Positions 24,259 through 48,708 of a stretch of DNA of 64,000 nt are shown here, piece by piece (positions within the stretch are counted from its first letter, which is position 1; every line of letters begins with the position of its first letter). The stretch lies in contig JAUNPS010000018.1 in NCBI GenBank assembly GCA_030536575.1, forward strand, positions 1 to 64,000, given 5' to 3'. The translations under genes and the position numbers were made by a program. Source of the stretch: Eubacteriales bacterium (GTDB lineage: Bacteria > Bacillota > Clostridia > Lachnospirales > Lachnospiraceae). The notes under the pieces are model-generated. The model searched no databases. It was not told the DNA's origin and was given only the letters and a program-made list of their open reading frames with translations.

Positions 24259-24270
24259 AGGAGCAGCGAA

Positions 24271-29897: not shown

Positions 29898-29913
29898 TAA
29901 ATATGGAGGAACA

Positions 29914-30014
29914 ATGAATAAGACAGCGATAAAAAATTTTGCGGTATGGGCGTGAAATAACCTCATTGCAGATATTACATAAGGCAGGATTGATTAGTGT
30001 AATCGAGAATGGTG
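29914..30014 (+). pseudogene. relic of the pglX 5' end
   Basis: About 100 bp align with the first codons of pglX at 31228. A strong GGAGGA site and ATG remain, then MNKTAIKNF, and TGA replaces codon 14 (AGA in pglX). One base is lost near codon 23, after which similarity continues in a shifted frame up to GAGAATGGT. It marks where pglX once began, before the ATPase gene at 30045 came to lie between this remnant and the intact pglX. Confidence 0.85.
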
Positions 30015-30044
30015 AATAATATAAAATAAAGCGGGGTGACTGAC

Positions 30045-31100
30045 ATGGAGATTAAGAAGCTCACGTTAAATAATTTTATGCTTTTTGAAAATACAGAGAT
30101 AGATTGGGCAAAAAATATCAATATTATTTGCGGAGAAAACAGCACTGGCAAGACAACTCTGTTAAAAGTAATGTATTCTGTTCTGAAACCGCTTAGCAGG
30201 GGAAGTAAAGAGGCTCTCAGCAAAGAAATGGAAGAGCAGTTATTTGTAAGTAAATTGCAGGGAGTATTCCGTCCAGATGGAATGAAAATTGGAAGACTGG
30301 TAAGCCGTAAACAAGGCAGTAATCGTACAGATTTTATGATTGAATTGGATAAAAACCAAAGGGTTTCCATTGGTTTTGGAAATCGTCAGGAGAATCACGC
30401 GGATGTTAAGGTACAAACGGTAGCTCCGCAGTTCAAATGTGATGTAATTTATATTCCGACAAAGGAGATGATATCGACAACAGAACACTTTGCGTCTCTT
30501 TACGAGGAATATCATATTGATTTTGAGGAAATGTATTACGATTTGGCAAAGCTATTAGATCGCCCGCTTTCAAAGGGACCAAATACGACTGAGCAAAATG
30601 AAGTATTAAAGAGTTTTGAAGAAATCATGAAAGGACAGATTGTCCAGAGAGATAAAAAGTTTTATCTTAAAATCAAGGGCGAGGGTGAATTTGAAATGGG
30701 ACTGCTCTCCGATGGATATAGAAAGTTATCCATGATTGTTTATATGATTTTATCAGGAAGCATAAGGAAAGATACGATTTTGTTTTGGGATGAGCCGGAA
30801 ACCAATATGAACCCGAAGATGATTCGTCCGATTGTACAGGCAATGGTGGCACTGGCGAGGATGGGAGTTCAGATTTTTGTGACAACGCATGATTATTTTG
30901 TGCAGCAGGAGTTTAACATGCTGACAGTTTATCCTGAGTTAAATCAGAATGAATTGGATACCCGGTTTATGTCATTATATCGGGATGAGAAAACGAATGA
31001 TGTGAAAATTGAGATGCAAAAAACAGCATCCGATTTGAAACATAATGCAATCATGCAGGAATTTGACGCGATTTATGATAGAGAACAGAGGGTGATTTAA
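30045..31100 (+). CDS. SMC/RecF-like ATPase, apparently without a partner
   Basis: A 351-aa ATPase: Walker A GENSTGKTT (about 31-39), signature-like LLSDGYRKLSMIVYMI, Walker B ILFWDEPETNMNP and H-loop FVTTHDYF. It is clearly related to the ATPase at 34875 (GENATGKT, LFWDEPEANINP, STHNYF), so the two are paralogous modules on either side of pglX. Unlike that one, no intact partner follows; 31101-31204 has only a short decayed frame. ATG 30045 follows GGGGTGA. Confidence 0.78.
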   Translation: MEIKKLTLNNFMLFENTEIDWAKNINIICGENSTGKTTLLKVMYSVLKPLSRGSKEALSKEMEEQLFVSKLQGVFRPDGMKIGRLVSRKQGSNRTDFMIELDKNQRVSIGFGNRQENHADVKVQTVAPQFKCDVIYIPTKEMISTTEHFASLYEEYHIDFEEMYYDLAKLLDRPLSKGPNTTEQNEVLKSFEEIMKGQIVQRDKKFYLKIKGEGEFEMGLLSDGYRKLSMIVYMILSGSIRKDTILFWDEPETNMNPKMIRPIVQAMVALARMGVQIFVTTHDYFVQQEFNMLTVYPELNQNELDTRFMSLYRDEKTNDVKIEMQKTASDLKHNAIMQEFDAIYDREQRVI

Positions 31101-31227
31101 GGTTACAGAGAAGTATCAATATAAAGATGAGATGGTTGGACTGTAAGGTGTCGGTTGTTGATTCCGCTACATATAACGAGAAGATTTTTCAGATTGTATC
31201 ATAGATACATTACACAGGAGAAAAGTG
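31101..31227 (+). other. short gap with possible gene remnant before pglX
   Basis: A frame from about 31124 to TAG 31204 encodes KMRWLDCKVSVVD then SATYNEKIFQIVS, which reads like a protein C-terminus but has no start site. It may be the tail of the lost partner of the upstream ATPase. GGAG precedes pglX. Confidence 0.3.
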
Positions 31228-34200: not shown

Positions 34201-34782
34201 ACAGATGAAGAATATTTTGAGGATGATATTGTGGGCTTGTTTGTTACATGGTTAAAGAAAGTCTATGGTGCGGATACGCTGGAAGAAAACCTTGATTTTA
34301 TTGCAAAAGCTCTTGGTAACAAGGGAGCAACTTCCCGTGAGATTATTCGCAATTATTTCTTGAATGATTTTATGAAGGATCATATCAAGATTTACCAGAA
34401 GCGTCCAATTTATTGGCTTTTTGATTCCGGCAAGCAGAACGGCTTCAAGGCTCTGGTGTATATGCATCGTTGGAACGCTGATACAGTTGGCAATCTGCGT
34501 GTCGAATATCTGCACAAGATGCAGCATATTTACGAGCGTGAAATTACCCGTATGCAGGAAACCATTGACAATAACCGGGACTCTCGTGAGGTTTCCAGGG
34601 CTACTAAGCGTAAGGACAAACTCCAAAAACAGTTGAAAGAAACCAAGGAGTATGATGCGAAATTGGCACATATTGCTCTTTCTCGTATTGAAATTGATCT
34701 GGATGATGGCGTGAAAGTCAACTATGAAAAGGTTCAGACTGGCAGAGACGGTAAGAAGATGCAGATTCTAGCAAAGATTTGA
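31228..34782 (+). CDS. pglX: BREX adenine-specific DNA methyltransferase PglX
   Basis: A 1184-aa methyltransferase of usual length. Motif I DPCMGSGHI lies at about residue 333 and motif IV NPPY at about 505, as in N6-adenine enzymes. An N-terminal helical domain and a C-terminal target-recognition region with a coiled coil follow. PglX methylates one strand of an asymmetric motif to mark self DNA. The segment at about 33180-33740 is AT-richer than the parts around it and may be an exchanged specificity region. A decayed copy of its 5' end lies at 29914. Confidence 0.93.
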   Translation: MNKTAIKNFTVWARNKLIADITYKAGLIGVSENGIAAPLPQSSKDLQFFDIGTKDYVQVAGAGIKQRNALVNVIQEKECASDYKTAFKSIIEEVAYTWFNRLIAIRFMEVNEYLPSRIRVLSSENPAKNEPDFVTTPFDTDLEFTVAEQDKIMKLKDENKLDELFRMLFIKQCNKLHEILPELFERTNDYTELLLSISFTDSDGIVYHLVHDIDEDDFNVEKEGQVEIIGWMYQYYNIEPKDETFALLKKNVKITKERIPAATQLFTPDWIVRYMVENSLGRLWVEGHPNDNLKENWKYYLEEAEQELDVETQLEEIRAEYRNLNPEDIKVIDPCMGSGHILVYCFDVLMQIYESQGYTQRDAAQSILENNLYGLDIDKRAAQLAYFAVMMKACEYDRRFLKRGIQPHVCAISESNGVDSYTLEYFCNGDAKLTKAMKTIVDELHDAEEYGSLLTVTPQEWSALYARFDEIEDDISMHKEASLALKPLVETAQVLSQKYHTVCTNPPYMGSSNMNGDLAKYVKDNYPDSKSDLFAVFIERCGKMVVRNGYQAMITQHAWMFLSSFEKLRGKMQQVDTVNMAHLGPRAFEEIGGEVVQTTSFVLRKSHTPDYKGTYCRLIEPTTQQGKEDMFFLGENRYVATQDNFAQIPGSPVAYWVSQCVLNIFSNTSSFRKYGKSLQGTVTGDNERFMRLWYEIAYYKLSIATKSELPSKWYPYCKGGEFRRWYGNLIHVINWENDGFEIRNFYDENGRLKSRPQNTSSFFKEGITWSSLTGGFFGGRYLPDNSTFSDIGPLLILNNNECLYNVLAYVNSKVFQAILDICCTGLHYQNGIIAGLPCIDPKYKSEYVDTVTKECISISQKDWDSYETSWDFQRHPLVGRGVTQISDAFVQWESECETRFQKLKSNEEELNRIFIEIYGLQDELTSEVKDKDVTVRKADLGRDIRSLLSYAVGCMLGRYSLDEPGLAYAGGEWDDKKYKTFIPDRDNCIPITDEEYFEDDIVGLFVTWLKKVYGADTLEENLDFIAKALGNKGATSREIIRNYFLNDFMKDHIKIYQKRPIYWLFDSGKQNGFKALVYMHRWNADTVGNLRVEYLHKMQHIYEREITRMQETIDNNRDSREVSRATKRKDKLQKQLKETKEYDAKLAHIALSRIEIDLDDGVKVNYEKVQTGRDGKKMQILAKI

Positions 34783-34874
34783 ACGGATAAAAATTGCCAA
34801 AGTGAAAGATAAGATTTAGAATGAATTGGGGAATAAATAAATTATGTATATGCTTGTAGAAAGGGGTGGCTTAC

Positions 34875-35909
34875 ATGAATATTAAAAGTATTAAGCTGGA
34901 GAATTATACTGTCTTTGAAAAGCTTTCACTGGATTTTAACAAGGGAATCAATGTATTTATCGGTGAAAATGCGACCGGAAAGACACACTTGATGAAGCTG
35001 CTTTATGCCGCATGTAAGTCAAATCGGGCTAATACCGGCTTTGAAGAGAAGATTGTTCGTACCATGATGCCGGACGAATTTCGGATAAGCAGGCTTGTAA
35101 CAAGAACCGCTGGGAATCGGCATGCAAAAGTAAAAATATTAGCGTCTCAGAATGAGCAAAAAGCAGAACGACAGCTGTCCATCGAATTTGCTCGAAATAT
35201 AAAGAAGTGGAAAGCAATTGTAAAAGGAAAAGAAGGCTGGGAGAAAGCTTTTGCAGAAGATTCCAGTGTATTTATTCCGGCAAAAGAAATTTTGTCCCAT
35301 AGCTATAAGCTGGCTGCAGCAACGAGTGTGGATAATGTTCGATTTGACGATACGTATATTGATATTATCAATTTGGCGAAAATTGATATTTCAGTGGGAA
35401 AGAATCCGACACTTCGTTCAGGGCTGTTAAAGAAAATTGAACGGATCACAGGGGGCAAGATTCAGTATGACGAGAAAAAAGATGAGTTTTATTTAAAACA
35501 AGGAAATTCTAAACAGGAGTTTAATCTTGTCGCAGAAGGAATTAAGAAAATGGGGCTTTTGTGGCAGCTGGCAAAAAATGGTACTTTGGAAAGCGGCTCT
35601 GTATTATTCTGGGACGAACCAGAAGCAAATATTAATCCCGCTAATCTTTCTCTGGTTGCAGAGCTTTTGCTGGAATTACAAAGAAATGGTGTTCAGATAT
35701 TTATATCTACACATAACTATTTTTTAGCTAAATATCTGGATATTAAGAAAACAGATCAAGACGATGTCTCATTTTACTCATTCTATTATGGTGCTGAGGA
35801 ACAGGGTGTACAATGCGAAATCAATGACCAATTTACATTATTGGAAAATAACCCCATTACAAAGACATATCTTCAGATTTATAGAGACGAGCTGGGGGTG
35901 GTATTATGA
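34875..35909 (+). CDS. SMC/RecF-like ATPase of a second two-gene module
   Basis: A 344-aa ATPase with Walker A GENATGKT (about 30-37), signature-like VAEGIKKMGLLWQL, Walker B VLFWDEPEANINP and H-loop ISTHNYF. Its stop overlaps the start of the next gene (ATGA). It resembles the ATPase at 30045 over its full length. It probably senses infection and controls the small protein encoded downstream. AAGGGG precedes ATG 34875. Confidence 0.78.
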   Translation: MNIKSIKLENYTVFEKLSLDFNKGINVFIGENATGKTHLMKLLYAACKSNRANTGFEEKIVRTMMPDEFRISRLVTRTAGNRHAKVKILASQNEQKAERQLSIEFARNIKKWKAIVKGKEGWEKAFAEDSSVFIPAKEILSHSYKLAAATSVDNVRFDDTYIDIINLAKIDISVGKNPTLRSGLLKKIERITGGKIQYDEKKDEFYLKQGNSKQEFNLVAEGIKKMGLLWQLAKNGTLESGSVLFWDEPEANINPANLSLVAELLLELQRNGVQIFISTHNYFLAKYLDIKKTDQDDVSFYSFYYGAEEQGVQCEINDQFTLLENNPITKTYLQIYRDELGVVL

Positions 35910-36433
35910 TGGCTCCTTTAATCGCAGAATCCGGAGTGGAATTTGGTCCGTTTGAGGAAGAACGGCTGTTTCGAATTGAGCATTCAGAGGTTCATAAACG
36001 TGCTGGAAAAGGGATTAAAGCTGTTGAATTTGTCTATTTGACAAAGAAGGCTAATCTTCTCTTTGTTGAGGCGAAAACCTCCTGCCCAAATCCGGAGAAT
36101 AGAGATAAAGACAGTGATATGCGGAAAAAATATGAGGAAACGTATTCTGAGATTACGGATAAATTTATAGATTCTCTTCATATGTTTGCGGCAATGGCAT
36201 TGGGGAGATATGGGGAAAAGCCTGGAGCCGGACAACTCATTCGTCGTACATACAGCGAAATAGGAATCAAATTTGTTCTTGTAATAACAGGCGCAAAAGA
36301 AGAGTGGCTAATGGGACCGAAAGCGGAACTGGAAGCTAGACTGCTTCGAGTCCGTAATATATGGAAAGCAGATGTGATTGTTTTGAATAAGGATATGGCA
36401 ACCAGATATGGACTTATCAGAGATGGGGAATAA
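35906..36433 (+). CDS. small partner of the ATPase, PD-(D/E)XK-like
   Basis: A 175-aa protein that I cannot place in a named family. The stretch VEFVYLTKKANLLFVEAKTSCP has the ExK half of a PD-(D/E)XK nuclease core, with an upstream Glu that could complete it. A later FVLVITGAKEEW strand fits an alpha/beta fold. Translational coupling to the ATPase suggests a sensor-effector pair. Its stop overlaps the pglZ start region by one base of spacing, so it is truly embedded in the BREX operon. Confidence 0.55.
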   Translation: MMAPLIAESGVEFGPFEEERLFRIEHSEVHKRAGKGIKAVEFVYLTKKANLLFVEAKTSCPNPENRDKDSDMRKKYEETYSEITDKFIDSLHMFAAMALGRYGEKPGAGQLIRRTYSEIGIKFVLVITGAKEEWLMGPKAELEARLLRVRNIWKADVIVLNKDMATRYGLIRDGE

Positions 36434-36434
36434 A

Positions 36435-39047
36435 ATGGCAGAATTGAGCTTGAAACAGGTTGTAGATAAGCTGAATGAGGAATTGTCCGGTGATGTGCGG
36501 AAGCTTATTTTTTGGTATGATGCCAATGCTGAGTTTGCGGATGATGTGGACACAATGGAACTGGTGAATGCCAAAGTGCTGCATCTGGAGCCGGACAACC
36601 AGTTCTATACAAAATATTTTCTGGAGTGCGTAGATACCACGACGAACTATCTAGTATATGCTCCTTTTGCGAAGCCTGCTATTCGAGAGAACCATTTGGC
36701 GGATACTATCAAGTATTCTAAAGAGTTCTTTGCTGACAGAGCTTCCTTGCTGACCCTTGACTTGGGCATTGACGAACGCTACAAGCCGGTGATCCAGCAT
36801 TACATTAAGTTTTTCGGAGAAAAGAAGCGTACTCAGGCTTTCTATGATCTGGAGATTGAGACTTTTAATCGTAATACGATTGAGATTGCCCTGATGAGCG
36901 TTCTCTGCAAGTGTAAGACTCCTTCCTATGAGGAGGTTCTTCGCACTGTTCTGACCGACAAAGTGAATTCCGCTGAAAGCGGAAGCGAGGGCAGCCTGAG
37001 CTGCGCGGGATTTAATGAAAATCCGTATCTGGCAGAGTTCAAGAAATATGATCTCTTGGATGCGTTCTGGCGTCAGGCGCAGGATGTATTTGGGTATGCA
37101 GATGAGAAACCTACCCTTGAGAAGTTCACGATGACTATGTTCGTGACTTATGCAGCCAAGGTTATCTCTGCGGAGATGCCCGTTGCATGGAGGGCGTTCA
37201 TTAGTTTCAAGTCCGGTAATGTTATTGCATTTATTGACAACCTGATGAACAGTTACATTTATGGGGAAAGATTCGACGAGATTTCTAAGTTGGTTTATGA
37301 CAGCTTGAAAGCAGATACTGAGTTTAGAAAATTCCCTGTCGAAGCGCTTGTTTCCTGCGGTATATTTGCGGGTGTTGATGAGCTGCTGATTGATTGGGTT
37401 ATCGAAAGATTGGAACTGGAAGATGTAGCTGCCAGGTTGGGTGACATTACAATCCCTCAGTTGGTAAAACAGCGTCGTCAGGGGCACTTTGGAAAGCTGT
37501 ATCGCTCTGAGTATTTCGTGTTGCAAAACGCATGGAATATCATCTCCGGAGCACAGTATGTATCTTCTGCAAGCCTGAACGAGATGGTGAAAAATTATAC
37601 GACCGATCTGTATAAGATGGATCGCTATTACCGCTACTTCTATTATTATCTGGATAAGCTCGAAGATACGACAAGATTTGACAGGCTGAAAGAGCTGGTT
37701 GAGAATATTTATGCCAATGATTATCTGGCGAAGGTATGTACCAACTGGAACGATCTTTTCAGCAACGAATTAGAGTCTTTGCAAATTGCAAAGCAGCCTG
37801 ACTTTTTTAATCGCAATGTGAATTACGCAAAAGACCAGTTGGTTGTTATTATCTCTGATGCCCTGCGTTATGAGGTCGGCATGACTCTTTTTGAAAAATT
37901 GCAGGCAGACGAGAAATGTACTACTACGATGAAAACGATGGCAAGCACCTTACCTTCTATCACACAGTATGGTATGGCTGCATTGCTTCCGCATAGAACG
38001 TTGGAATTGACTGACGACTATACTGTATTGGTTGACGGGCAGAAAACTGAGACATTGGAACAGCGTCAGACAATTCTCCAGAAATATAAACCTGCCAGTA
38101 GATGCGTTCAGTACGATGACATCAAAAATCTGAGTGTGGCAGATCTCCGCAGTATTTTTACCCGTCAGGATGTGGTATATATCTACCACAACCAGATCGA
38201 CGCCAGAGGTGATAAGCTGAATACGGAAAATGAAGTGTTCAATGCCTGCGCTGAAGCTGTGGATGAAATCGCTGCATTGATTCGCCGTTTGACGATCAGC
38301 GCCAACAGGTCTCATTTCATTGTGACCGCAGACCATGGTTTCCTTTACAGAAGAAATAAGCTGTCTGAAAGCGATAAGGTGAATGTCCCCAAAGGGGACA
38401 GAGAGGATGGCCTGGGCCACAAGATTAGCTCTGTATCAGGTACAGCGGATATTCTCGGACGCCGCTATCTCCTTTCAGTGGAAGCCGTAGAAACGGAGGG
38501 TGTGGCAGCAACAGCAGTCGGTACTATGATGCAGAATAAGGATGAGCGTATGGTTTCTTATCCGGTTGGGGCAGATATTTTCAAGGCTCCCGGCTCTGGC
38601 ATGAATTATGTTCATGGCGGTTGTTCCCCTCAGGAGATGCTTGTTCCCCTGATTGAGGTCAAGACGGAACGCGGATATAAAGAAACTACAACGGCTCAGA
38701 TTGCTCTGGTAAGTTTGACTTCCAAGATTACAAACCTGATTACCTCTCTTGACTTTGTTCAAACAGAAGCAGTCAGCGATGTGGTTAAAGAAACAACCTA
38801 CCGGCTCTACTTTGTAGATAGCAATGGAGAGAGGATTTCTAATGAGCATTTGTACGTTGCCGATAAAAAGGACAATGATACGGTTAAGCGTGTGTTCCGC
38901 TTACGTTTCTCTTTCAAAAACAAAAAGTACAATAAGTCTCAGAAGTATTATCTGGTGGCTTATGACGATAACAATGCGCTTGAAGTTCTGCGGCATGAAA
39001 TTGTAATGGATATTGCATTTGCGGATGAGTTTGATTTTGGATTCTAA
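36435..39047 (+). CDS. pglZ: BREX alkaline-phosphatase-superfamily protein PglZ
   Basis: An 870-aa protein. The phosphatase-like domain has VVIISDALRYEVG (about residue 473, metal-binding Asp) and FIVTADHGFLYRR (about 630, Asp-His). The C-terminal part is beta-rich. PglZ is the marker protein of all BREX types and binds PglX. ATG 36435 is chosen since it lies right after the preceding stop; an ATG at 36408 would overlap that gene. Confidence 0.93.
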   Translation: MAELSLKQVVDKLNEELSGDVRKLIFWYDANAEFADDVDTMELVNAKVLHLEPDNQFYTKYFLECVDTTTNYLVYAPFAKPAIRENHLADTIKYSKEFFADRASLLTLDLGIDERYKPVIQHYIKFFGEKKRTQAFYDLEIETFNRNTIEIALMSVLCKCKTPSYEEVLRTVLTDKVNSAESGSEGSLSCAGFNENPYLAEFKKYDLLDAFWRQAQDVFGYADEKPTLEKFTMTMFVTYAAKVISAEMPVAWRAFISFKSGNVIAFIDNLMNSYIYGERFDEISKLVYDSLKADTEFRKFPVEALVSCGIFAGVDELLIDWVIERLELEDVAARLGDITIPQLVKQRRQGHFGKLYRSEYFVLQNAWNIISGAQYVSSASLNEMVKNYTTDLYKMDRYYRYFYYYLDKLEDTTRFDRLKELVENIYANDYLAKVCTNWNDLFSNELESLQIAKQPDFFNRNVNYAKDQLVVIISDALRYEVGMTLFEKLQADEKCTTTMKTMASTLPSITQYGMAALLPHRTLELTDDYTVLVDGQKTETLEQRQTILQKYKPASRCVQYDDIKNLSVADLRSIFTRQDVVYIYHNQIDARGDKLNTENEVFNACAEAVDEIAALIRRLTISANRSHFIVTADHGFLYRRNKLSESDKVNVPKGDREDGLGHKISSVSGTADILGRRYLLSVEAVETEGVAATAVGTMMQNKDERMVSYPVGADIFKAPGSGMNYVHGGCSPQEMLVPLIEVKTERGYKETTTAQIALVSLTSKITNLITSLDFVQTEAVSDVVKETTYRLYFVDSNGERISNEHLYVADKKDNDTVKRVFRLRFSFKNKKYNKSQKYYLVAYDDNNALEVLRHEIVMDIAFADEFDFGF

Positions 39048-39060
39048 GGGAGGTGTTTGA

Positions 39061-40569
39061 ATGGACATAAAGGAATTACAATCCATTCTTACAATTGGAG
39101 AAACCGTAGCGGTAGAATTCAAACGCTGCGGTAATGGAATAGAATCGGATACCTATGAAAGTGTTTGCTCTTTCCTGAATCGTTTTGGAGGGGACATTTT
39201 CATGGGTGCGCTGGATGATGGTACAGTGCTTGGCGTGCCGGAAAAAGCGGCTCCTGATATGATAAAGAATTTTATCAGTGTAGTGAGCAATCCTGCATTA
39301 TTTTCTCCGACTGTTTATCTGACTCCGAAGATAATCACGGATGAAGCCGGGCATACAATTATCCATGTTCACGTACCGCCAAGCGCCGAGGTTCACAGTT
39401 ATAAAAAAGTGATTTACGACCGTGTAGACGATGCGGATGTTAAGGTGACGGCTACTGGTGCGATTGCACAGATGTATATCCGTAAGCAGAACATCTTCAC
39501 GGAAAAGAAGATTTATCCTTATGCGACAATGGAGGATTTACGGCTGGATCTGTTACCGAAAGTCCGGCTCATGGCGCAGAATCATGCGGGTGGGCAGCAT
39601 CCGTGGACAAAGATAGACGATATGCAGCTGTTGAAAAGTGCGGGATTATATGGAAGAGATATTGCGACTGGGGAAGAAGGGTTTAATCTTGCCGCAATTA
39701 TGCTGTTGGGGAAGGACGATGTCATTCTGAATGTAGCTCCTACCTATGTTACGGATGCGCTTGTCAGAAAGGTTAATGTAGATCGGTATGATGACCGTGA
39801 AATCATAAAGACAAACCTGATTGAAAGTTATGAGCAACTGTTGGAGTTTGGTAGGAAGCATCTGCCGGACAAGTTCTTTTTGGAGGATACCATAAATAAG
39901 AGTCTGAGAAATACGATTGTCAGGGAGATGGTCAGCAATACGCTGATGCATCGAGAATTTACCAGCAGTTATACGGCGAAGTTTGTGATTGAAAAAGACC
40001 AGATGTATGTGGAAAATGCAAATCGTGCAGCAAAGGACGGATGGATTACGGTGGAAAATCTGTCACCAAATCCGAAAAATCCGTATATAGCAGCATTTTT
40101 TAGAAATATCGGATATGCGGATCAGCTTGGTTCCGGGGTGCAGAAATTGTTTGAGTATAGCAAGTATTATTCCGGACGTGATCCACAGTTTTTGGAGAGC
40201 GATGTGTTCCGGATTATTGTACCATTGGATGAGGCATATTCTTATGATTTTGCATTGCTTGATGGTAAAAATGGTATCAGTGGAACCCAATATGCCGATA
40301 ATGAGATCAAAAGTGCCGAAGAAGCCACCCAAGCGACTACCCAAGCCACCCAAGATAGGAACCAATCGCTGATGCGGTTAAAAGAAAATGAAACGGTAAA
40401 GAGCGTTTTAAAGTTAATAGAAAAGAATCCTGCTATTTCTCAGAAGCAAATAGCAAAAACATTGTGTTTGAATCAAAACACGGTAAAATATTATATAAAG
40501 AAGATGAAAGAGATTGGAATCATAAAGAGGGTTGGTTCTAGTCAAACAGGTCACTGGGAAATTCTCTGA
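39061..40569 (+). CDS. AlbA_2 (Schlafen-like) / GHKL ATPase / HTH protein in BREX
   Basis: A 502-aa protein in three parts: an AlbA_2 domain (about 1-130; VAVEFKRCGNGIESDTYESVCSFLNRFGGDIFMG), a GHKL-type ATP-binding fold of the HATPase_c_4 group (about 280-390; REMVSNTLMHRE, GSGVQKLFEYS), a Thr/Gln-rich linker (ATQATTQATQ) and a C-terminal winged helix (ISQKQIAKTLCLNQNTVKYYIKKM). Such proteins are often annotated as helicase-related regulators. Its place between pglZ and brxL, on the same strand with 13 and 16-bp gaps, suggests a regulator or accessory part of BREX. Confidence 0.8.
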   Translation: MDIKELQSILTIGETVAVEFKRCGNGIESDTYESVCSFLNRFGGDIFMGALDDGTVLGVPEKAAPDMIKNFISVVSNPALFSPTVYLTPKIITDEAGHTIIHVHVPPSAEVHSYKKVIYDRVDDADVKVTATGAIAQMYIRKQNIFTEKKIYPYATMEDLRLDLLPKVRLMAQNHAGGQHPWTKIDDMQLLKSAGLYGRDIATGEEGFNLAAIMLLGKDDVILNVAPTYVTDALVRKVNVDRYDDREIIKTNLIESYEQLLEFGRKHLPDKFFLEDTINKSLRNTIVREMVSNTLMHREFTSSYTAKFVIEKDQMYVENANRAAKDGWITVENLSPNPKNPYIAAFFRNIGYADQLGSGVQKLFEYSKYYSGRDPQFLESDVFRIIVPLDEAYSYDFALLDGKNGISGTQYADNEIKSAEEATQATTQATQDRNQSLMRLKENETVKSVLKLIEKNPAISQKQIAKTLCLNQNTVKYYIKKMKEIGIIKRVGSSQTGHWEIL

Positions 40570-40585
40570 CAGGAGGGGCAGATAA

Positions 40586-42649
40586 ATGGACGAGTATATG
40601 GAAACAGATGATACCAGAGTGGTGATAAAGAATAAGCTGCGCCAATATTTTGACGGCAAGATCGTCCGCAAGGATTTGACGAAGCACATCAAGGAAGGAG
40701 CGAACGTACCGGTATATGTACTGGAATTCCTGCTTGGTCAGTATTGCAGTTCCGATGATGAGGAGATCATCGAAGAGGGCGTAAATAATGTAAAGCGGAT
40801 TCTGGCAGATAATTTTGTCAGACCGGATGAAGCGCAGAAGGTACTTTCTATTCTTCGTGAGCGTGGCAGCTATACGGTGATTGATAAGATTACCGTACAT
40901 CTGAACATCAAGGAAGACCGTTATGAAGCGGAGTTTTCAAATCTTGGAATCAAGAACATTCCGATTCATCCGGACTACCCTTCCAAGTATGACCGCCTGC
41001 TTTGCGGCGGCATTTGGTGTATTTTGCAGCTGGATTATGAGTTTATCGAAGAAGACAAGAAAAATACGACGCCGATTCGCATTCGCAAGCTGACGCCGAT
41101 CCAGATGCCGCACATTGATTTAGACGAGCTGAAGAACGGCAGAAAAGCATTCACGAAAGAAGAATGGATTGACGTTCTGATTCGCTCTACCGGAATGGAG
41201 CCGGATAAGCTGTCTGACCGTGTGAAGTGGCTGCTGCTGGCTCGTATGATTCCATTGGTGGAGAATAACTTTAATCTCTGCGAACTGGGACCGAGAAGTA
41301 CCGGTAAATCCCATATTTACAAAGAGATTTCACCTAACAGCATCCTGGTATCCGGCGGCCAGACGACGGTGGCAAATCTGTTTTACAATATGGCAAGTAA
41401 GACAGTCGGCTTAGTTGGTATGTGGGACTGCGTTGCTTTTGATGAGGTTGCCGGTATCACGTTTAAAGACAAAGATGGTGTGCAGATCATGAAGGATTAC
41501 ATGGCTTCCGGCTCCTTTGCCCGTGGCCGAGAGGAAAAGGCTGCGTCTGCATCAATGGTTTTTGTCGGCAATATCAATCAGAGTGTGGACGTGCTGCAGA
41601 AAACTTCTCATCTGTTTGAGCCATTCCCGGCGGCGATGGCATACGATACGGCATTCCTTGACCGTATGCATTGTTACATTCCCGGTTGGGAGATTCCGAA
41701 GTATCGCCCGGATTTTTTCACAGATGATTATGGCTTTATTACGGATTACCTTTCCGAGTATATGCGTGAAATGCGTAAGGAATCTTATGGTGATGCATTT
41801 GATAAATATTTCCGTCTTGGCACCAATTTGAACCAGCGTGATACGATTGCGGTTCGTAAGATGGTATCCGGTTTTGTAAAGCTGATTTATCCGGATGGCG
41901 AGTATAGCAAGGAAGACGTTCAGGAGATTCTGTCGATCTCCCTGGAACTTCGCCGCAGAGTGAAAGAGCAGCTCAAAAAAATCGGCGGTATGGAGTTCTA
42001 TGATGTGAACTTCTCATACATTGACAATGAAACTTTTGAGGAGAATTATATTTCCGTTCCGGAGCAGGGCGGCGGCAAGCTGATCCCGGAAGGAATGGGC
42101 AAACCAGGTTCTGTTTACACTGTTTCCAAGTCAAAAACCGGTATGATCGGCTGTTACATGCTGGAAACACAGATGATGCCGGGGAATGGAAAGCTGACAT
42201 GTACGGGTATTGGTTCCGGGAAAGAGCCAAAAGAAGCGACCAATACGGCGTTTAATTATCTGAAAGCCAATGGAAACCGCATTTCCGGTCAGATCAGTAC
42301 CACGACAAAGGATTATATCATCAATTATCAGGACATGCAGGGAATTGGAATGACCGGAAATCTGGCTTTGCCTACCTTGATTGCGATCTGTTCTGCGGCA
42401 CTTGGAAAGACTCCATTGAGCAGTCTTGCGATTTTAGGAGAAATCAGTATTGGCGGCACGTTGATTAAAGTAGACGAATTGGCAAGTACGCTGCAGGTTT
42501 GTCTGGACAGTGGAGCCAAAAAAGTATTGCTTCCTACGACGTCAGCGGCAGATCTTGGCACGGTGCCCTCCGAATTGGTTGGGTCGTTTAGTTTGATTTT
42601 CTATGCATCCGCAGAAGAAGCAGTATTTAAAGCTCTTGGTGTGGAATAA
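40586..42649 (+). CDS. brxL: BREX Lon-like protease/ATPase BrxL
   Basis: A 687-aa protein with an AAA+ core (ELGPRSTGKSHIYKE, Walker A at about residue 237; CVAFDEVAGI Walker B) and a C-terminal Lon-protease-like domain (LAILGEISIGGTLIKVDELASTL). BrxL forms DNA-binding rings and is required for phage restriction in type 1 BREX. GGAGGGG precedes the ATG. It completes the six-gene set. Confidence 0.93.
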   Translation: MDEYMETDDTRVVIKNKLRQYFDGKIVRKDLTKHIKEGANVPVYVLEFLLGQYCSSDDEEIIEEGVNNVKRILADNFVRPDEAQKVLSILRERGSYTVIDKITVHLNIKEDRYEAEFSNLGIKNIPIHPDYPSKYDRLLCGGIWCILQLDYEFIEEDKKNTTPIRIRKLTPIQMPHIDLDELKNGRKAFTKEEWIDVLIRSTGMEPDKLSDRVKWLLLARMIPLVENNFNLCELGPRSTGKSHIYKEISPNSILVSGGQTTVANLFYNMASKTVGLVGMWDCVAFDEVAGITFKDKDGVQIMKDYMASGSFARGREEKAASASMVFVGNINQSVDVLQKTSHLFEPFPAAMAYDTAFLDRMHCYIPGWEIPKYRPDFFTDDYGFITDYLSEYMREMRKESYGDAFDKYFRLGTNLNQRDTIAVRKMVSGFVKLIYPDGEYSKEDVQEILSISLELRRRVKEQLKKIGGMEFYDVNFSYIDNETFEENYISVPEQGGGKLIPEGMGKPGSVYTVSKSKTGMIGCYMLETQMMPGNGKLTCTGIGSGKEPKEATNTAFNYLKANGNRISGQISTTTKDYIINYQDMQGIGMTGNLALPTLIAICSAALGKTPLSSLAILGEISIGGTLIKVDELASTLQVCLDSGAKKVLLPTTSAADLGTVPSELVGSFSLIFYASAEEAVFKALGVE

Positions 42650-42717
42650 ACAGTAAATATGGATAGAAAATGTTGATAAGAAGGTGAACTGCTATTTTTG
42701 AACAGGATTTTGAAGAG

Positions 42718-43785
42718 ATGCTTCGGCAGCATCAGGCATCTCTGGATAATAAGAAGATATTTACAGCACTTGTGAAAGATCTGTTTCCGACGCAGGCAAA
42801 GAATGTCAATCTGCTGCTTATGGCCTATAATCTGGGAATTGCACAGGACATACAAAATACCTCCAGAATCAATCATGCATTCGCCTTCCGGTATGTGAAA
42901 CAGTTAATGGATGATTTTGGGGTGAGTCGTGCGAATGCAGACTGGATTGTATCTGTATGGTGCGTTTGCTATGGAAATAAAGTGCTGGGCAAAATTTGTG
43001 AGATCACATTACAGAAGCAGGGAAACGGGCCGACGATTCAGAGGGAGCAGTCTTCTTCCAGTAAATCCTATGGAGATTTGTTTACATATGAGAAAAGCCG
43101 CAGAGGAAAAGGTCTTGCAGTGACCGGATTCCGTGGGGATAAGAATCAGACAATCATTTTCCAGAATAGGTCAGGGAATACACCGGTGGTTGAGATTGCG
43201 GATAACAGTTTTAGTAATTCTTCAATAGAGGAAGCTATTTTGACTGAAGGCATTACATATATTGGCCGAAATGCTTTTTCCGGATGTAAAAAGCTGCATC
43301 AGGTGTTATTGCCACCCAGCATTGAGGAGATTGAAGATTCAGCATTTGAAAATTGCAGTCGTTTGAAATCAATATCCTTGCCAATGGCATTAAAGATGAT
43401 TGGAGATGGGGCTTTCAAAGGAACCGGACTGCGGACAATTGAGATTCCCAAGAGTGTGTTCTGGTTAGGCGACGGACTGGCGAAAGATTGTCAGTCAATG
43501 GATCATGTGACGATTCCGGAAAACATAGGCAGGATTCCGGATCATATGTTTGAAGGTTGTACGAATCTAAAGAAAGTGGAATTTCATGAAAATATGGTTT
43601 CGATTGGAGAAAGAGCCTTTTTTGGATGCAGTTCATTAGATTTTGTAATTATTCCGGATCGTGTGAAAAGCATTGGCCAGGATGCGTTTTCCAATACAGA
43701 CAAACAGTTTATTATGCAGTGTTCTTTTGAATCTTATGCTGAGGAATATGCAAGAAAACATAAATTAAAGTATCAACTGGTGTGA
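42718..43785 (+). CDS. BspA-type leucine-rich repeat protein, cytoplasmic
   Basis: About 355 aa. The first 110 residues are a helical domain (IFTALVKDLFPTQAKNVNLLLMAYNLGI), the rest carries about six BspA-type LRR units (FSGCKKLHQVLLPPSIEEIEDSAF, FEGCTNLKKVEF and so on). No signal peptide, so it stays in the cell, unlike most BspA-like surface proteins. The start is unclear: ATG 42718 lacks a good site, while AAGGTG at 42681 sits seven bases before an in-frame ATT (42694) that would add eight residues. It heads the kinase-vWA-PP2C cassette and could be its recognition part (inference). Confidence 0.7.
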   Translation: MLRQHQASLDNKKIFTALVKDLFPTQAKNVNLLLMAYNLGIAQDIQNTSRINHAFAFRYVKQLMDDFGVSRANADWIVSVWCVCYGNKVLGKICEITLQKQGNGPTIQREQSSSSKSYGDLFTYEKSRRGKGLAVTGFRGDKNQTIIFQNRSGNTPVVEIADNSFSNSSIEEAILTEGITYIGRNAFSGCKKLHQVLLPPSIEEIEDSAFENCSRLKSISLPMALKMIGDGAFKGTGLRTIEIPKSVFWLGDGLAKDCQSMDHVTIPENIGRIPDHMFEGCTNLKKVEFHENMVSIGERAFFGCSSLDFVIIPDRVKSIGQDAFSNTDKQFIMQCSFESYAEEYARKHKLKYQLV

Positions 43786-43908
43786 TCGGTAATTTTCGTT
43801 TGCCGCCTGCTATGCGGCCATAAAGAATAACGTATTGTCTGATAGCAGCGGACGGAAATGTTGCAAATGGAGTATTTGGTTGATTAAACGAAGGAGACAA
43901 ATGTCGTA

Positions 43909-45210
43909 ATGGAAGGACAGTTGAAAAAGGGAACGCTTCTCACGTCAGAATGCGGGAACAAATATGAAATTGTAAGTCTTCTGGGGGCTGGAGGTCAGGG
44001 AGAAGTGTATGATGTGAAATGCAAGGACAGCCATTATGCACTGAAATGGTACTTTAAAGGAAGCGCCACAGCAGGACAAAAGGAAATCCTGGAAACCATC
44101 GTCTCCAAGGGTTCTCCGGATCCGTGTTTTTTATGGCCAATGGAAATGATCGTTCCGGCACAGGGAAATGTATTTGGTTACATTATGGAGCTTCGCCCTA
44201 AGAATTATAAAAGTATTGTGGATTTAATGAAGAGAAAAGCGGAACCTTCTTTCTATGCGCTTTGTCGAACTGCATTTAATTTGGCTTGTGGATATAAAAA
44301 GCTGCATGACTGGGGTGCCGTTTATCATGATATTTCATTTGGGAACCTGTTTTTTGATCCGAGCAATGGTGATGTTCTAATCTGCGATAACGATAACGTT
44401 AGTTTCGATAAGAACAAAACGGGTGGAGTGCTTGGAACCCCAGGCTTTATGGCTCCTGAGATTGTCAGAAGAGAGGCAAGACCATCAAGAAATACAGACC
44501 AGTATTCTCTTTCTGTTTTGCTGTTTTATCTTTTTATGGTGAACCATCCGCTGGAAGGCCGTTTGGAAGCGCAGATTAAATGCATGGATATGGCTGCCAG
44601 AGAAAAATTATATGGAACAGATCCGGTATTTATTTTTGATCCGGTCAATAAGACGAATCGTCCGGTAAAGGGGATTCACGATAATGCTTCTATTTATTGG
44701 CCAATCTATCCGGAGAAGCTTAGACAGATGTTTACAAAAGCATTTACTACGGGCCTTACAGATCCTAAGAAACGAATTACGGAGCTGGAATGGATGACTA
44801 TCTTTGCAAATATGATGAGCGGTATGATGCAATGTCCTAAGTGTGGCGCCCGGATTTTTTATGATGAAGATTTAGCAGCAAAAGGAGCAGGGCACCTTTG
44901 TTGGAATTGTTCTAACAGCATTGCAGTTCCAACAAAATTAGTGGTGGGAAAGAATATGGTTTTATTGAACCAGAATACACGCATTATGCATCACCACATT
45001 TATGGCGATTATGATATGAACACAGTCGTCGGGAAAGTGGTGCAGAATCCAAACAATCCCAACCTCTGGGGAATACGTAATGAAGATACTGTGAACTGGA
45101 CATATGAAAAAGCGGATGGAACACAGATTCCTGTTGCGCCTGGAAGAACAGCCGGAATCGTCAAGGGAGTAAAGATTCACTTTCCAAATGGAATTGGTAT
45201 GTTCGAATAA
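43909..45210 (+). CDS. Ser/Thr protein kinase with zinc ribbon (TerY-P-like kinase)
   Basis: A 433-aa kinase: Gly-loop LGAGGQGEVY (about 25-34), ATP Lys in YALKWY, catalytic HD at 140-141 with Asn four residues on (HDISFGN), and DND in place of DFG (LICDNDNV). The activation segment GGVLGTPGFMAPE looks intact. A four-Cys zinc ribbon (CPKCG...CWNC, about 306-330) and a beta-rich C-terminal domain follow. It is followed by vWA and PP2C genes, the known TerY-P trio of kinase, vWA and phosphatase linked to stress and nucleic-acid-processing loci. No membrane segment, so it acts in the cytoplasm. Confidence 0.85.
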   Translation: MEGQLKKGTLLTSECGNKYEIVSLLGAGGQGEVYDVKCKDSHYALKWYFKGSATAGQKEILETIVSKGSPDPCFLWPMEMIVPAQGNVFGYIMELRPKNYKSIVDLMKRKAEPSFYALCRTAFNLACGYKKLHDWGAVYHDISFGNLFFDPSNGDVLICDNDNVSFDKNKTGGVLGTPGFMAPEIVRREARPSRNTDQYSLSVLLFYLFMVNHPLEGRLEAQIKCMDMAAREKLYGTDPVFIFDPVNKTNRPVKGIHDNASIYWPIYPEKLRQMFTKAFTTGLTDPKKRITELEWMTIFANMMSGMMQCPKCGARIFYDEDLAAKGAGHLCWNCSNSIAVPTKLVVGKNMVLLNQNTRIMHHHIYGDYDMNTVVGKVVQNPNNPNLWGIRNEDTVNWTYEKADGTQIPVAPGRTAGIVKGVKIHFPNGIGMFE

Positions 45211-45269
45211 AATGAAATTATTATTTGAAAGATTGATACATACGTCGAATCGTAAGGAGGTTACAAAAA

Positions 45270-46007
45270 ATGGAAGAACTAAGAAGACCAGGCGGAGAAT
45301 TAGCAAGCAGACCGCTGCATTTCTTTTGGATTGTGGATTGTTCTGGCTCCATGTACGGAGAAAAAATTGGAACAGTAAACAATGCGATCCAGACATGTAT
45401 TCCAGAAATGGCGTCTGCCGCTGAGAACAATCCAAATGCGCAGCTTTTGATTCGCACGCTCAGCTTTTCTACAGGAGCAACCTGGCTGACGTCAAATCCA
45501 GTTCCAGTTGAAGATTATGCATGGGAAGATCTGGATGCAAATGGTGTTACCGATTTGGGAAAGGCATTTGAATTACTTGCTGCGCAGCTTTCTATCCCTC
45601 CAATGCCGGCAAGAGCGCTGCCGCCAGTTCTTGTATTGCTATCAGATGGGCAGCCAACCGATAATTACAAGAAAGGATTAGAGGAATTGAAGAAAATGCC
45701 TTGGTTTCGAAAGGCAGTCAAGATTGCTGTTTCTATTGGACAGGATGCAGATGACGATGTATTGATTGAGTTTACTGGAAATAGGGAGCTTGTTCTTCAG
45801 GCAAATAATGCTGCTGCGCTTACAAAGATGATCAAGTGGGCTTCTACAACAGCCTCAATGGTATCTGCACCTGCAAGCAGACCTATGGATTCTCCGGTAT
45901 CTGCACCAGCCGACGATCCATTTGCGGCACCGAATGGCGCCCCACTTGTTCTTGATATGAGTAAGATTCCAGATCCTGGTGATATCGGTGCGGGAGATGT
46001 ATGGTAG
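45270..46007 (+). CDS. TerY-like vWA protein
   Basis: A 245-aa protein. The vWA domain spans about 15-205 with an intact MIDAS: DCSGSMYG, a conserved Thr (NGVTDLG) and LLSDGQPTD. A Pro/Ala-rich tail (APASRPMDSPVSAPADDP) follows. In the TerY-P arrangement the vWA protein is thought to be a scaffold or substrate switched by phosphorylation. AAGGAGG precedes the ATG. Confidence 0.85.
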   Translation: MEELRRPGGELASRPLHFFWIVDCSGSMYGEKIGTVNNAIQTCIPEMASAAENNPNAQLLIRTLSFSTGATWLTSNPVPVEDYAWEDLDANGVTDLGKAFELLAAQLSIPPMPARALPPVLVLLSDGQPTDNYKKGLEELKKMPWFRKAVKIAVSIGQDADDDVLIEFTGNRELVLQANNAAALTKMIKWASTTASMVSAPASRPMDSPVSAPADDPFAAPNGAPLVLDMSKIPDPGDIGAGDVW

Positions 46008-46018
46008 GAGGTGCTTGC

Positions 46019-46864
46019 ATGAAGCATTTACTTTATGGTGAGAGCATCAAAGGAGCTGCTCATGTGCGGAATGGAGCCCTTCTTCAAGATAGTTATAAAA
46101 TAGAAAAGGTTTCTGACGATATATCCATCATTGCGGCTGCAGATGGGCATGGAAGCGAGAAATGTCCGAAAAGTAAAAATGGATCTATGATCGCGGTGAA
46201 TGTATTCTGTAAGGTAATGAAAGATTATATCAATCATTATTCGGATGCCACAGAAAGTCTTATTACCTGGCTCAACCGTGAAGGTGAGCTGAGATTTGCA
46301 CAGAATATCTGTGATGAATGGCAGCGCAGAGTTCGCAAATCATTCAATGACAGTAAAGCAGAGAAACCAGTAGGTGACGATGGAAAAACGGATTGGAAGT
46401 CTGTATATAAATTATATGGAACCACGCTCTTGGGATTGCTTATTACTTCGACGTATATATTCGCGTTCCAGTTAGGTGATGGAGATATCCAATTGGTTGA
46501 TGAGGGCGGTGTGTCGTCAGTTGTAGAAACAGAAAAGATTCTTGGAACAGAAACCTATTCCTTATCAAAAGTGGATGCTTGGAGAAAGGCTGTATCTGCA
46601 GTACGCCGGAGGGATGTATCAGAAGGTGTTCCATACTTGTATCTGATTTCTACAGATGGATTTGCAAATAGTTATCTTACCGAAGAAGATTTTGCAAAAA
46701 CGTGCCGTGAGTATTTTGCACTTATCAGAAGACATGGATTTGATATAGTATGTGCGAATCTTGGAAAATGGCTGACGGAAACCAGTGAATTGGGGTGTGG
46801 AGATGACATCACTGTTGTTCTGGCATATTTTGACGCGCGGGAGATGATCTTGGATGGTCGCTGA
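46019..46864 (+). CDS. PP2C-family protein phosphatase
   Basis: A 281-aa Mn/Mg-dependent phosphatase with the metal-binding AADGHGSEKC, LGDGDIQLV, STDGFANSY and CGDDITVVLAYF motifs of the family, so active-site acids look complete. ATG 46019 with AGGAGG upstream is preferred over 46001, which overlaps the vWA stop. It would reverse the action of the kinase at 43909. The end overlaps the next gene by 11 bases. Confidence 0.87.
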   Translation: MKHLLYGESIKGAAHVRNGALLQDSYKIEKVSDDISIIAAADGHGSEKCPKSKNGSMIAVNVFCKVMKDYINHYSDATESLITWLNREGELRFAQNICDEWQRRVRKSFNDSKAEKPVGDDGKTDWKSVYKLYGTTLLGLLITSTYIFAFQLGDGDIQLVDEGGVSSVVETEKILGTETYSLSKVDAWRKAVSAVRRRDVSEGVPYLYLISTDGFANSYLTEEDFAKTCREYFALIRRHGFDIVCANLGKWLTETSELGCGDDITVVLAYFDAREMILDGR

Positions 46865-47879
46865 TCGATATTATTATCAATGTTTAAATGATGTTGAGAA
46901 GCGAGTATATCAAACCGTTTATGCGGGAATCAAGCAGCAGAAAAGTTTGATTCCGATAACGGTATCTGGTCTTGCAAAGGAATCTGTAAATCGAATCTTT
47001 CATGCGGTGACTGCAGATAATCCGCTTTTTTATTACTGCAATCATTCAGTAATGAGTATTGCGCAGGATCAATTTGGAAATATGGCTTTTTGTCCACAAT
47101 ATTATTTTAAGGAAGATCAGGTATTCGAACATAATATAAAAATCCAGCAGGCGGTTAACCAGCTGATTGCTGATTTACGATTAACAGAAGGATCAGATTA
47201 CGAAAAGGTTTTAAAACTGAACGAGTATTTTTGCAAAAAAGTAGAGTATGATGCTGCCGGGGCTGATCTGGCAGATGTGACACGCGTGATTATGTCTCAT
47301 ACGATTCTGGGCGTATTTGCCAAGCGGAGGGCTCAATGCGAAGGGATTGCAAAAGCGGTTAAAGTCTTGCTCAATGCGGTAGATGTTAAGTGCATCGTCG
47401 TTGATGGAACAGCAACTTTAAATGATGGAACCAGGAGCTTACATGCATGGAATATTATAAAGCAGGGTGGTGTGCCATATCATGTGGATATCACATTTAA
47501 TATGGGCCATACCACAAATGGAAATGTGGCATATGATTGGCTGAATGTCAGCGATGCTATGGTGAAAGGAAATCATATGCCGGATACTGATATGAAATTG
47601 CCAGCTTGCCGATCAGAAAAGTTAAATTATTATACATTGAACAAAGCGGTATTTTCATCCAAGAAACAGGCATGTGAATACATAAAAAAGAAAATAAAAT
47701 ACGGAGAACGGTTGATTTATATGAGATTTAACGGTCGGGTTAAAGTGTCAAACATATATATGGAACTCGTTCAAATTGTGAGTGGTGCAATTCGGGAGTG
47801 TTACACAGATCAGGATAATTTAACAGTCAGCAGTGTGTTGGGAGTGGATACCAATACACTGAGACTATGGATACGTTAA
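46854..47879 (+). CDS. transglutaminase-like (papain-fold) protein
   Basis: A 341-aa protein whose middle part is a transglutaminase-like domain with the triad visible: Cys162 in AQCEGIA, His197 in LHAWN, Asp212 in HVDITF. It has no signal peptide. In the cell it could act as a protease, amidase or cross-linking enzyme. The overlap with the PP2C gene points to one functional unit with the kinase-vWA-phosphatase trio. I know no established system with this exact set. Confidence 0.78.
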   Translation: MVADRYYYQCLNDVEKRVYQTVYAGIKQQKSLIPITVSGLAKESVNRIFHAVTADNPLFYYCNHSVMSIAQDQFGNMAFCPQYYFKEDQVFEHNIKIQQAVNQLIADLRLTEGSDYEKVLKLNEYFCKKVEYDAAGADLADVTRVIMSHTILGVFAKRRAQCEGIAKAVKVLLNAVDVKCIVVDGTATLNDGTRSLHAWNIIKQGGVPYHVDITFNMGHTTNGNVAYDWLNVSDAMVKGNHMPDTDMKLPACRSEKLNYYTLNKAVFSSKKQACEYIKKKIKYGERLIYMRFNGRVKVSNIYMELVQIVSGAIRECYTDQDNLTVSSVLGVDTNTLRLWIR

Positions 47880-47931
47880 AGAGAGAAGAAGTTTTGTACC
47901 AGACACCGGTGGGCGCAAAGGATAGCAGAAT

Positions 47932-48708
47932 ATGAACAGCAAAATTTGTTTATGTGACAAGAAAGCGGATATATTGGAAAGAGCCATTTACTCTGAGATA
48001 TGCAGCCATGATGGTTTGAAGGCAAAAGATATATGTAAAAATATTTCAGCCGACCGAAAGACCATCAACCAATATTTGTACAAAGCGCCGCTTATGAGGG
48101 AATTGTGTTACCGTGATGATGATTACAAATGGCATGGATTGGTCCGGCAGAACCGACCGCATATAGGTTTGGGGGATTTTTGCGGATATTATAGTTCGGT
48201 TGGGGAATTCTTGGAATTGGAGGAGGAAGAATGGTTTAAAACGATGCTTTCCGGATGCAAAAATATCGGGCGGAATCTGAATGATACCAGGGGATTGTTC
48301 CATTCCTTCCGGGATTGCAGGAATGTGATGGTTCAACTTTTTGAGGATCTGGAGAGTGTCTTTCAACCGGATTGGGAAATTGCGTTTGAGCTGCGGATCA
48401 ACCGGGCGCGCTATATCCGAATTTATGCAGATGTGCTTGTGCTTACGGAGGATAAAGCATTTTCTCTGGAATTTAAGATGAAAGATAAAGCTATGCCAGA
48501 GGAAGTCCGGCAGGCTGCGAAGTATACGGAGTATCTGGAAGTGATTTTGGGATCAGAATATGATGTGATTCCCTGTTTGGTGCTGACCAAGGCAGATGAT
48601 TTGTACAGATATGAACCATTAGGTGTTGGTGACGCACTGATTCCGGTATGTTCTGGGAATATGTTGTTTAATCTATTTGATGAATATATTGGATTCTTGA
48701 AAGAATGA
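47932..48708 (+). CDS. HTH protein with PD-(D/E)XK nuclease-like domain
   Basis: A 258-aa protein. The N-terminal 65 residues read as a winged helix (LKAKDICKNISADRKTINQYLY). The C-terminal half has IRIYADVLVLTEDKAFSLEFKMKDKA, with Asp then ExK, the pattern of PD-(D/E)XK nucleases; a later VIPCLVLTKADD strand fits the fold. It may cut or bind nucleic acid as the effector of the cassette (inference). It is the last gene of the same-strand run that began at 22823. Confidence 0.65.
   Translation: MNSKICLCDKKADILERAIYSEICSHDGLKAKDICKNISADRKTINQYLYKAPLMRELCYRDDDYKWHGLVRQNRPHIGLGDFCGYYSSVGEFLELEEEEWFKTMLSGCKNIGRNLNDTRGLFHSFRDCRNVMVQLFEDLESVFQPDWEIAFELRINRARYIRIYADVLVLTEDKAFSLEFKMKDKAMPEEVRQAAKYTEYLEVILGSEYDVIPCLVLTKADDLYRYEPLGVGDALIPVCSGNMLFNLFDEYIGFLKE

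Follow-up and report, generated by a model that had tools for sequence, protein, structure and literature searches.

A TerY-P triad with an LRR protein and a transglutaminase-fold protein forms a conserved gene module behind brxL in one BREX lineage

The question raised by this locus is whether the genes that follow brxL in a clostridial BREX (bacteriophage exclusion) type 1 island make up a unit kept with BREX, and what such a unit would do. The locus lies in a 64,000-nucleotide stretch of contig JAUNPS010000018.1 (assembly GCA_030536575.1, Eubacteriales bacterium, Lachnospiraceae), referred to here as the window. Six open reading frames (ORFs) follow brxL on the + strand (42718–43785, 43909–45210, 45270–46007, 46001–46864, 46854–47879, and 47932–48708), with gaps, in order from brxL to gene 6, of 68, 123, 59, −7, −11, and 52 bp. 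A sequence-only reading had placed six same-strand ORFs here behind BREX, which agrees with the coordinates and with the PADLOC names of the BREX genes, and had taken all six as one cassette. That proposal stands in part: five genes, encoding a leucine-rich repeat (LRR) protein, a Ser/Thr-type kinase, a von Willebrand factor A (vWA) protein, a PP2C-type phosphatase, and a transglutaminase/papain-fold protein (TG), recur in order at related loci, and gene 6 was found at none of the others. We conclude that the five-gene cassette is real and has been conserved as an accessory module by one lineage of BREX.

Conservation of the gene set behind brxL

GTDB species genomes were scanned with a vWA profile, and the best 80 of 439 relatives were kept; because these 80 loci were chosen by similarity to the window vWA, BREX-linked loci are over-represented among them. 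Together with the window and five loci from family genomes they gave 86 entries, one record being present twice. L053 is the same record as L110, and L200 the same as L072; L053 still stands in the locus-family, gene-order, domain-match, and residue counts, and was dropped from the kinase tree and the domain-neighbour statistics. Genes in the fetched loci were called as greedy longest ORFs, and families were scanned for domains through chosen representatives. Across the 86 entries the vWA family was present in 78 loci, the kinase in 75, PP2C in 74, and LRR in 54; TerY_C proteins were found in 32, a protein of about 168 amino acids (aa; S168) in 19, TG in 18, and brxL in 14. Among 200 family genomes, clear relatives of the kinase (best match below 1e-50) occurred in seven, the window's own and six others.

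Searched for as a neighbourhood with and without BREX, as the sequence-only reading had suggested, the LRR, kinase, vWA, and PP2C genes were kept together at 15 brxL loci, and related cores (kinase, vWA, and PP2C) were found also without BREX. The order brxL–LRR–kinase–vWA–PP2C was seen in all 14 brxL-holding loci, some with small ORFs or S168 in between. A fifteenth locus, L076, lies in its genome behind brxA–brxB–brxC–pglX–pglZ–brxL–LRR, giving 15 distinct loci with this order, the window and 14 others, a recurrence beyond chance. The LRR gene stood directly after brxL in 14 of 14 brxL-holding loci and also in L289, the brxL–LRR gap ranging from −14 to 96 bp across the 14 loci. TG was present in 13 of the 15 BREX-linked loci; of the two in which it was not seen, L089 has a contig that ends after PP2C, and L075 has a short TerY_C frame followed by other genes. 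TG is preceded by two other genes in L065 and by a 260-aa adaptor protein in L070. Of the 13 genomes that hold the BREX-linked loci and L142, 12 have a BrxC relative; none was found in the L066 genome.

Two further proteins belong to the fuller set, both missing in the window. ORF calls place S168 between the LRR and kinase genes at 10 loci of the 15, and tblastn adds four more that the gene calls had missed; it was not found in the window, and the one member scanned had no Pfam match. TerY_C, a family assignment based on one scanned member matching PF15616 at 2e-11, was present in six of the 15 loci, and no match to PF15616 was obtained with Pfam among the window's six proteins; TerY-P clusters often have this domain but do not need it.

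Carriage of the kinase or vWA gene by phages or plasmids was considered and set aside: neither was found in a phage record or a confirmed viral contig, and plasmid matches amounted to three records at 25–42%. A type II-A-like CRISPR-Cas set was observed inside the cassette of L076 (959–8400), between LRR and kinase, and also in L289; Cas9 was named by PADLOC, Cas1, Cas2, and Csn2 were recognized by eye, and eight repeat copies were counted.

Domains and conserved residues of the cassette proteins

The first cassette gene (42718–43785, +) encodes a 355-aa protein with BspA-type LRRs at residues ~150–330 (Pfam LRR_5, 6.9e-56). Its first ~88 residues (42718–42981, +) form an adaptor-like domain that has no Pfam match and whose profile matches 87 proteins in the loci. 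Because homologues begin about eight codons earlier (xFEQDFEEML), translation may begin upstream of the called start, at an in-frame ATT codon at 42694. The kinase (43909–45210, +; Pkinase, 9.8e-16) carries a C-terminal four-cysteine ribbon (residues 309–334) and a tail; the ribbon assignment rests on the cysteines, since no ribbon model passed its own cut-off, and for the tail no solved chain was significant (best 0.043). These are followed by a stand-alone vWA protein with a full metal ion-dependent adhesion site (MIDAS) motif (45270–46007, +; Pfam VWA, 1.1e-5), the phosphatase (46001–46864, +; Pfam PP2C_2, 7.7e-30), and TG, the candidate effector (46854–47879, +; Transglut_core, 8.7e-7). 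The closest solved chain to TG was 9crn_A (7.4e-32), and a signal peptide was not obvious by eye.

Residues expected of these folds were kept throughout the aligned relatives: Lys-46, Asp-141, Asn-146, Asp-160, and the four ribbon cysteines of the kinase in 75 of 75; the MIDAS residues Asp-23, Ser-25, Ser-27, Thr-94, and Asp-126 of vWA in 78 of 78; and the DGHG motif of PP2C in 74 of 74. Together with the Pfam domains, these residues fit the earlier identification of kinase, vWA, and PP2C as the TerY-P trio. The papain-fold triad of TG had been described as intact, and its Cys-162, His-197, and Asp-212 are indeed conserved in 18 of 18 relatives. Since catalytic residues are conserved, the kinase, phosphatase, and TG are probably enzymatically active. 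PADLOC at E 0.1 returned nothing for LRR, vWA, or PP2C; the kinase matched general kinase models only (PD-T4-6 and mad6), and TG gave a weak match to PDC-S26 (0.0021).

Lineage of the cassette

The BrxL tree comprised 43 rows (an earlier set of 31 less L069 and L163, plus 14). In it the 14 cassette-linked sequences and one cassette-free row (G374) formed a group at 83/48, and at 98/92 without L065. The sister group (25 rows, 100/99) showed no LRR gene beside brxL in the visible stretch of up to 1.5 kb (24 of the 25 rows checked, the row from the L144 genome not; several unlinked loci show less than 1.5 kb downstream), and these 25 unlinked rows indicate that BREX occurs without the cassette. 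Two label changes sufficed on this tree as opposed to 12.1 in shuffles, and none of 500 shuffles was as low. In a separate observation, L199 (G425:C85:3263–5487) holds a BrxL, split over three frames, that lies near the cassette-linked group (90% across the best-matching stretch).

A kinase tree was built from kinases longer than 420 aa only, with eight of 23 rnf-linked rows retained. It contained a clade of 17 rows (98/93) made up of the 15 BREX-linked kinases (14 labelled plus L076), L115, and L142. L115 is a 3-kb record, too short to tell whether it is linked to BREX, and L142 is a second cassette, not beside BREX, in a genome that also holds L068.

Identities and Mantel tests were computed for 11 of 14 BREX-linked loci (L069, L075, and L104 were dropped). 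The cassette genes co-track, with Mantel values of 0.91 for kinase and LRR (11 loci) and 0.89 for kinase and TG (10 loci), p 0.0002. Median identities were 0.77 for vWA, 0.68 for the kinase, 0.56 for PP2C, 0.53 for LRR, and 0.41 for TG, the most divergent cassette protein; on the BREX side they were 0.81 for BrxL and 0.40 for pglZ (five loci).

Because the cassette-linked BrxL sequences form one group and the cassette kinases likewise group together (98/93), the cassette was probably recruited once behind brxL in one BREX type 1 lineage. The full explanation that we propose is that a TerY-P triad, an LRR adaptor, and a TG-fold protease were recruited, probably once, behind brxL of one BREX type 1 lineage and kept there as an accessory module that would gate a second-line defence. 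Its basis in gene content, gene order, catalytic residues, the BrxL and kinase groupings, and a common domain is observed; as a whole, we regard the explanation as evenly poised between right and wrong.

Evidence weighing against the proposed explanation

Several findings weigh against this explanation, and they fall into two sets. The first concerns the tie to BREX. The earlier 31-row BrxL tree needed one label change, and its split had a support of just 64/62. The BrxL of G374 (85%), which lies inside the cassette group, has no LRR gene in the remaining 1.5 kb of its contig, and on this ground the idea that the cassette is an obligate part of its BrxL group was rejected. Furthermore, brxL tracks the cassette weakly, with Mantel values of 0.38 for vWA (p 0.002), 0.33 for LRR (0.015), 0.29 for PP2C (0.016), 0.24 for the kinase (0.056), and 0.23 for TG (0.052), and pglZ and the kinase do not co-track (−0.04, n = 5). 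Since the Mantel values are strong within the cassette and weak to brxL, the cassette appears as one evolving block behind a single lineage of BrxL, the BREX side having undergone exchange.

Such a block, following brxL only weakly, is also what would be seen of an independent TerY-P-type defence system that shares an island, and perhaps a transcript, with BREX as its carrier and has no functional coupling to it. The second cassette copy in L142, which lacks adjoining BREX, the related cores without BREX, and the CRISPR-Cas set inserted in the L076 cassette, as in a system-gathering island, all fit this alternative. Its weak side is that the modules belong to a single lineage of BrxL and a single main clade of kinases and that the position directly after brxL is kept at all 15 loci found. 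We judge it rather unlikely.

The second set of findings concerns the core and TG elsewhere, the core being fixed also at sites that are not of the defence kind. In 23 of 74 kinase rows it has rnf genes as neighbours and usually comes with an LRR adaptor; these loci (L053, L073, L074, and others) read kinase–LRR–vWA–PP2C, often with TerY_C. Five loci of another family (L234, L235, L237, L244, and L251) hold kinase–vWA–PP2C–adaptor protein followed by one common gene pattern; the neighbours in L235 resemble histidine biosynthesis genes by eye, and its adaptor, the only one scanned, is a Sel1 protein. TG-like proteins are common, being found in 164 of 200 family genomes at E 0.001, and 17 of 19 TG loci have no core gene within 1.5 kb, the other two having core or TerY_C genes adjoining.

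The rnf-linked and histidine-type settings, together with the description of the TerY_C family as metal-binding (Pfam PF15616), would suit a Ter-type switch for general stress or metal responses, whose proximity to BREX is regulatory or accidental and whose main role is not anti-phage. This we hold to be improbable: relatives of the core sit with defence-type enzymes (a DUF4011 helicase-nuclease and DpdF-like and GajB-like helicases), and no cassette-family TG was called in rnf-linked loci. The form that carries TG looks like a special branch with a probable role in defence. Close relatives of the core were also seen in records titled Synergistaceae, Coriobacteriales, and planctomycete metagenome-assembled genome (L136, L140, L138, and L135), by which the core reaches beyond Bacillota.

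The N-terminal adaptor-like domain

The domain formed by the first ~90 residues of the LRR protein was aligned from 44 of 60 non-redundant rows. Its 87 related proteins in the fetched loci cover 74 of 85 distinct loci, and among the 11 without it are L076 and L115, whose LRR gene is truncated at the edge of the locus or lies in a short record. After removal of the duplicate, 85 domain proteins had the core in view, and 54 of them directly adjoin a core gene, as against 15.7% of all non-core genes (hypergeometric p about 1e-25, the loci not being independent). The Pfam partners of the domain were LRR_5, Sel1, ankyrin, UvrD helicase (GajB-like in PADLOC), DpdF-like superfamily 2 helicase, superfamily 1 (SF1) AAA_11 helicase, FGE-sulfatase, DUF4261, and Sel1 with the C-terminal domain of RNA polymerase alpha. 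The LRR protein is thus one member of a protein set that has this Pfam-unmatched domain in common and lies beside TerY-P triads. As a related observation, in four loci (L052:3084–10690, L071, L130, and L144) a DUF4011 helicase with an MTES_1575 nuclease domain (PDC-S37/Hhe-like) lies beside the triad, paired with a protein that bears the adaptor domain at its C terminus.

In the 200 family genomes, all seven domain matches were inside TerY-P clusters, and the domain was present in six of the seven core-bearing genomes and in none of the 193 others. At the order level, a wider profile placed it in 34 of 344 genomes; 36 regions were fetched, 16 with a core gene and 20 without, the latter being above all weak matches and several on short contigs. 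A core gene was in view for eight of nine matches at E 1e-8 or better and for 11 of 30 weaker regions. A strict tie between domain and triad, which held in the family genomes, was therefore dropped after failing in the order genomes. The profiles lean to cluster-linked copies, since they were built from such copies. No solved chain was significant for the fold (best 0.032), and no effector-associated domain (EAD) model matched; the logic is EAD-like in that a small domain is fused to varied partners in one kind of neighbourhood, which at the order level is not exclusive to TerY-P clusters.

From this distribution the domain may be read as an adaptor connecting client proteins to the kinase hub. 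A wider proposal, which we put forward tentatively and think somewhat short of probable, is that an undescribed adaptor plugs interchangeable clients (LRR, Sel1, and ankyrin sensors; UvrD/GajB-like, DpdF-like, and SF1 helicases; FGE-type enzymes) into a TerY-P hub, one core serving many defence machines. One BREX lineage would then have been captured through the LRR client, with the TG protease as a phosphorylation-gated second-line effector.

The BREX locus of the window and gene 6

The BREX type 1 gene set is complete in the window by PADLOC. The genes brxA, brxB, brxC, pglX, and pglZ lie at 23034–39047 (+), interspersed with ATPase genes of HEC-01/HEC-02 type, and brxL (40586–42649, +; PADLOC BrxL, 1131.8 bits) is the last BREX gene, directly 5′ of the cassette. 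The three ATPase insertions are at 27972–29897, 30036–31100, and 34866–36433 (named HEC-01A/B, HEC-02A, and HEC-02A/B by PADLOC). Between pglZ and brxL (39061–40569) lies a Schlafen AlbA_2 protein with a C-terminal helix-turn-helix (HTH), resembling an auxiliary described in the available part of PMC12839542. A second vWA-like protein at 18085–18828 (−) scored 23.2 bits against a Pfam cut-off of 23.8. Promoter-like sites (25 versus 17.1, standard deviation 4.2, in shuffles) and terminator-like sites (six versus 4.6, standard deviation 2.1) carried little information; on the + strand, terminator-like sites occur only inside the kinase gene and inside gene 6.

Gene 6 (47932–48708, +), which had been proposed as part of the cassette and a possible effector, is judged from the neighbourhood survey and PADLOC to lie outside it. 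The protein has an HTH and a PD-(D/E)XK-like look, the latter from reading by eye and a weak PADLOC match (PDC-S41, 7.4e-7), and no Pfam match. The other 14 BREX-linked loci showed no copy of it (the downstream side of L089 being beyond the contig end). Close homologues (55–65%) exist in five other genomes of the 200 family genomes, a sixth match being weak (9.8e-4), and beside the five there was no match to any of the other 17 query proteins from the window. Gene 6 was on these grounds rejected as a nuclease effector of the set.

Comparison with known systems

The TerY-P triad is a stand-alone anti-phage system (Gao et al. 2020, as cited in the available parts of PMC7699616, PMC10889362, and PMC11090510). 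It protects PAO1 against phage, most cells surviving (PMC10889362, in part), and is described as a phosphorylation-dependent, perhaps metal-sensing switch (PMC11090510, in part). The cassette shares with it adjacent vWA, PP2C, and Ser/Thr kinase genes and, in relatives, TerY_C (PF15616) proteins. It differs in having a four-cysteine ribbon on the kinase instead of the OB-fold given in the same part of PMC11090510, in the added LRR adaptor and TG, and in its fixed place after brxL. The triads of CoCoNuT types II and III-A, by that source, have a kinase-zinc ribbon fusion, vWA, PP2C, and a restriction-type partner; here, in contrast, the partner is BREX, and no match to the CoCoNuT core proteins McrB/McrC was found for genes 23034–42649 with PADLOC or 39061–48708 with Pfam.

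The BREX type 1 survey in PMC12839542, as far as available, has in common with this locus the core BREX genes and, as auxiliaries, a Schlafen-type gene and OLD-like ATPase genes. Its main text, searched by word, had no occurrence of TerY, PP2C, transglutaminase, leucine, or LRR, and the vWA mentions in the part available concern MoxR-vWA systems. According to the same source, BREX type 2 (Pgl) likewise has a protein kinase (PglW) tied to BREX; PglW is one large multidomain protein, whereas the cassette has a separate kinase, vWA, PP2C, and adaptor. The available part of PMC7159879 describes vWA-centred conflict systems with peptidases, rarely of transglutaminase type, a small effector-associated domain with varied partners, and, next to GTPase systems, a set made up of a kinase-zinc ribbon, PP2C, and vWA. 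This set, the small domain common to varied partners, and the vWA systems with peptidases are points of likeness; unlike those systems, the cassette has no MoxR ATPase seen and no EAD match, and its hub is a kinase–phosphatase pair. Finally, the kinase resembles MAD6 of MADS (PADLOC mad6, 1e-13), a similarity to kinases at large, as NCBIfam MAD6 gave 27 bits against a cut-off of 460; for other MAD proteins PADLOC yielded general ATPase matches only, and the locus does not qualify as MADS.

The sequence-only reading had known of no named system with the full set. This agrees with the lack of PADLOC matches for LRR, vWA, and PP2C and with the full-text literature, in which, among the matches listed, none had the set and no title or abstract start joined TerY-P to BREX with these genes; an earlier mention is possible in Gao et al. 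2020, the 2012 Ter-system paper, and other subscription papers. As far as searched, the combination is new and made of known kinds of parts.

Proposed function

A working scheme may be drawn from TerY-P biology, as set out in the available parts of PMC10889362 and PMC11090510. The sequence-only reading had already put forward a sense–threshold–effector logic, which stays hypothetical. In the scheme, the N-terminal domain would dock the LRR protein to the kinase/vWA hub, and this protein would sense infection or failure of BREX, while the kinase and PP2C would set a phosphorylation threshold. Once this was passed, TG would be released and could cleave cell, phage, or BREX proteins, TG as effector being the weakest step of the scheme. 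In this way the cassette would back BREX up with a second defence layer that is gated by phosphorylation.

If this is true, BREX type 1 gains a layer of control by protein phosphorylation as well as a protease that is a candidate effector. It would also put a name to a docking domain through which TerY-P triads reach different defence enzymes, whose clients could be listed by domain and swapped.

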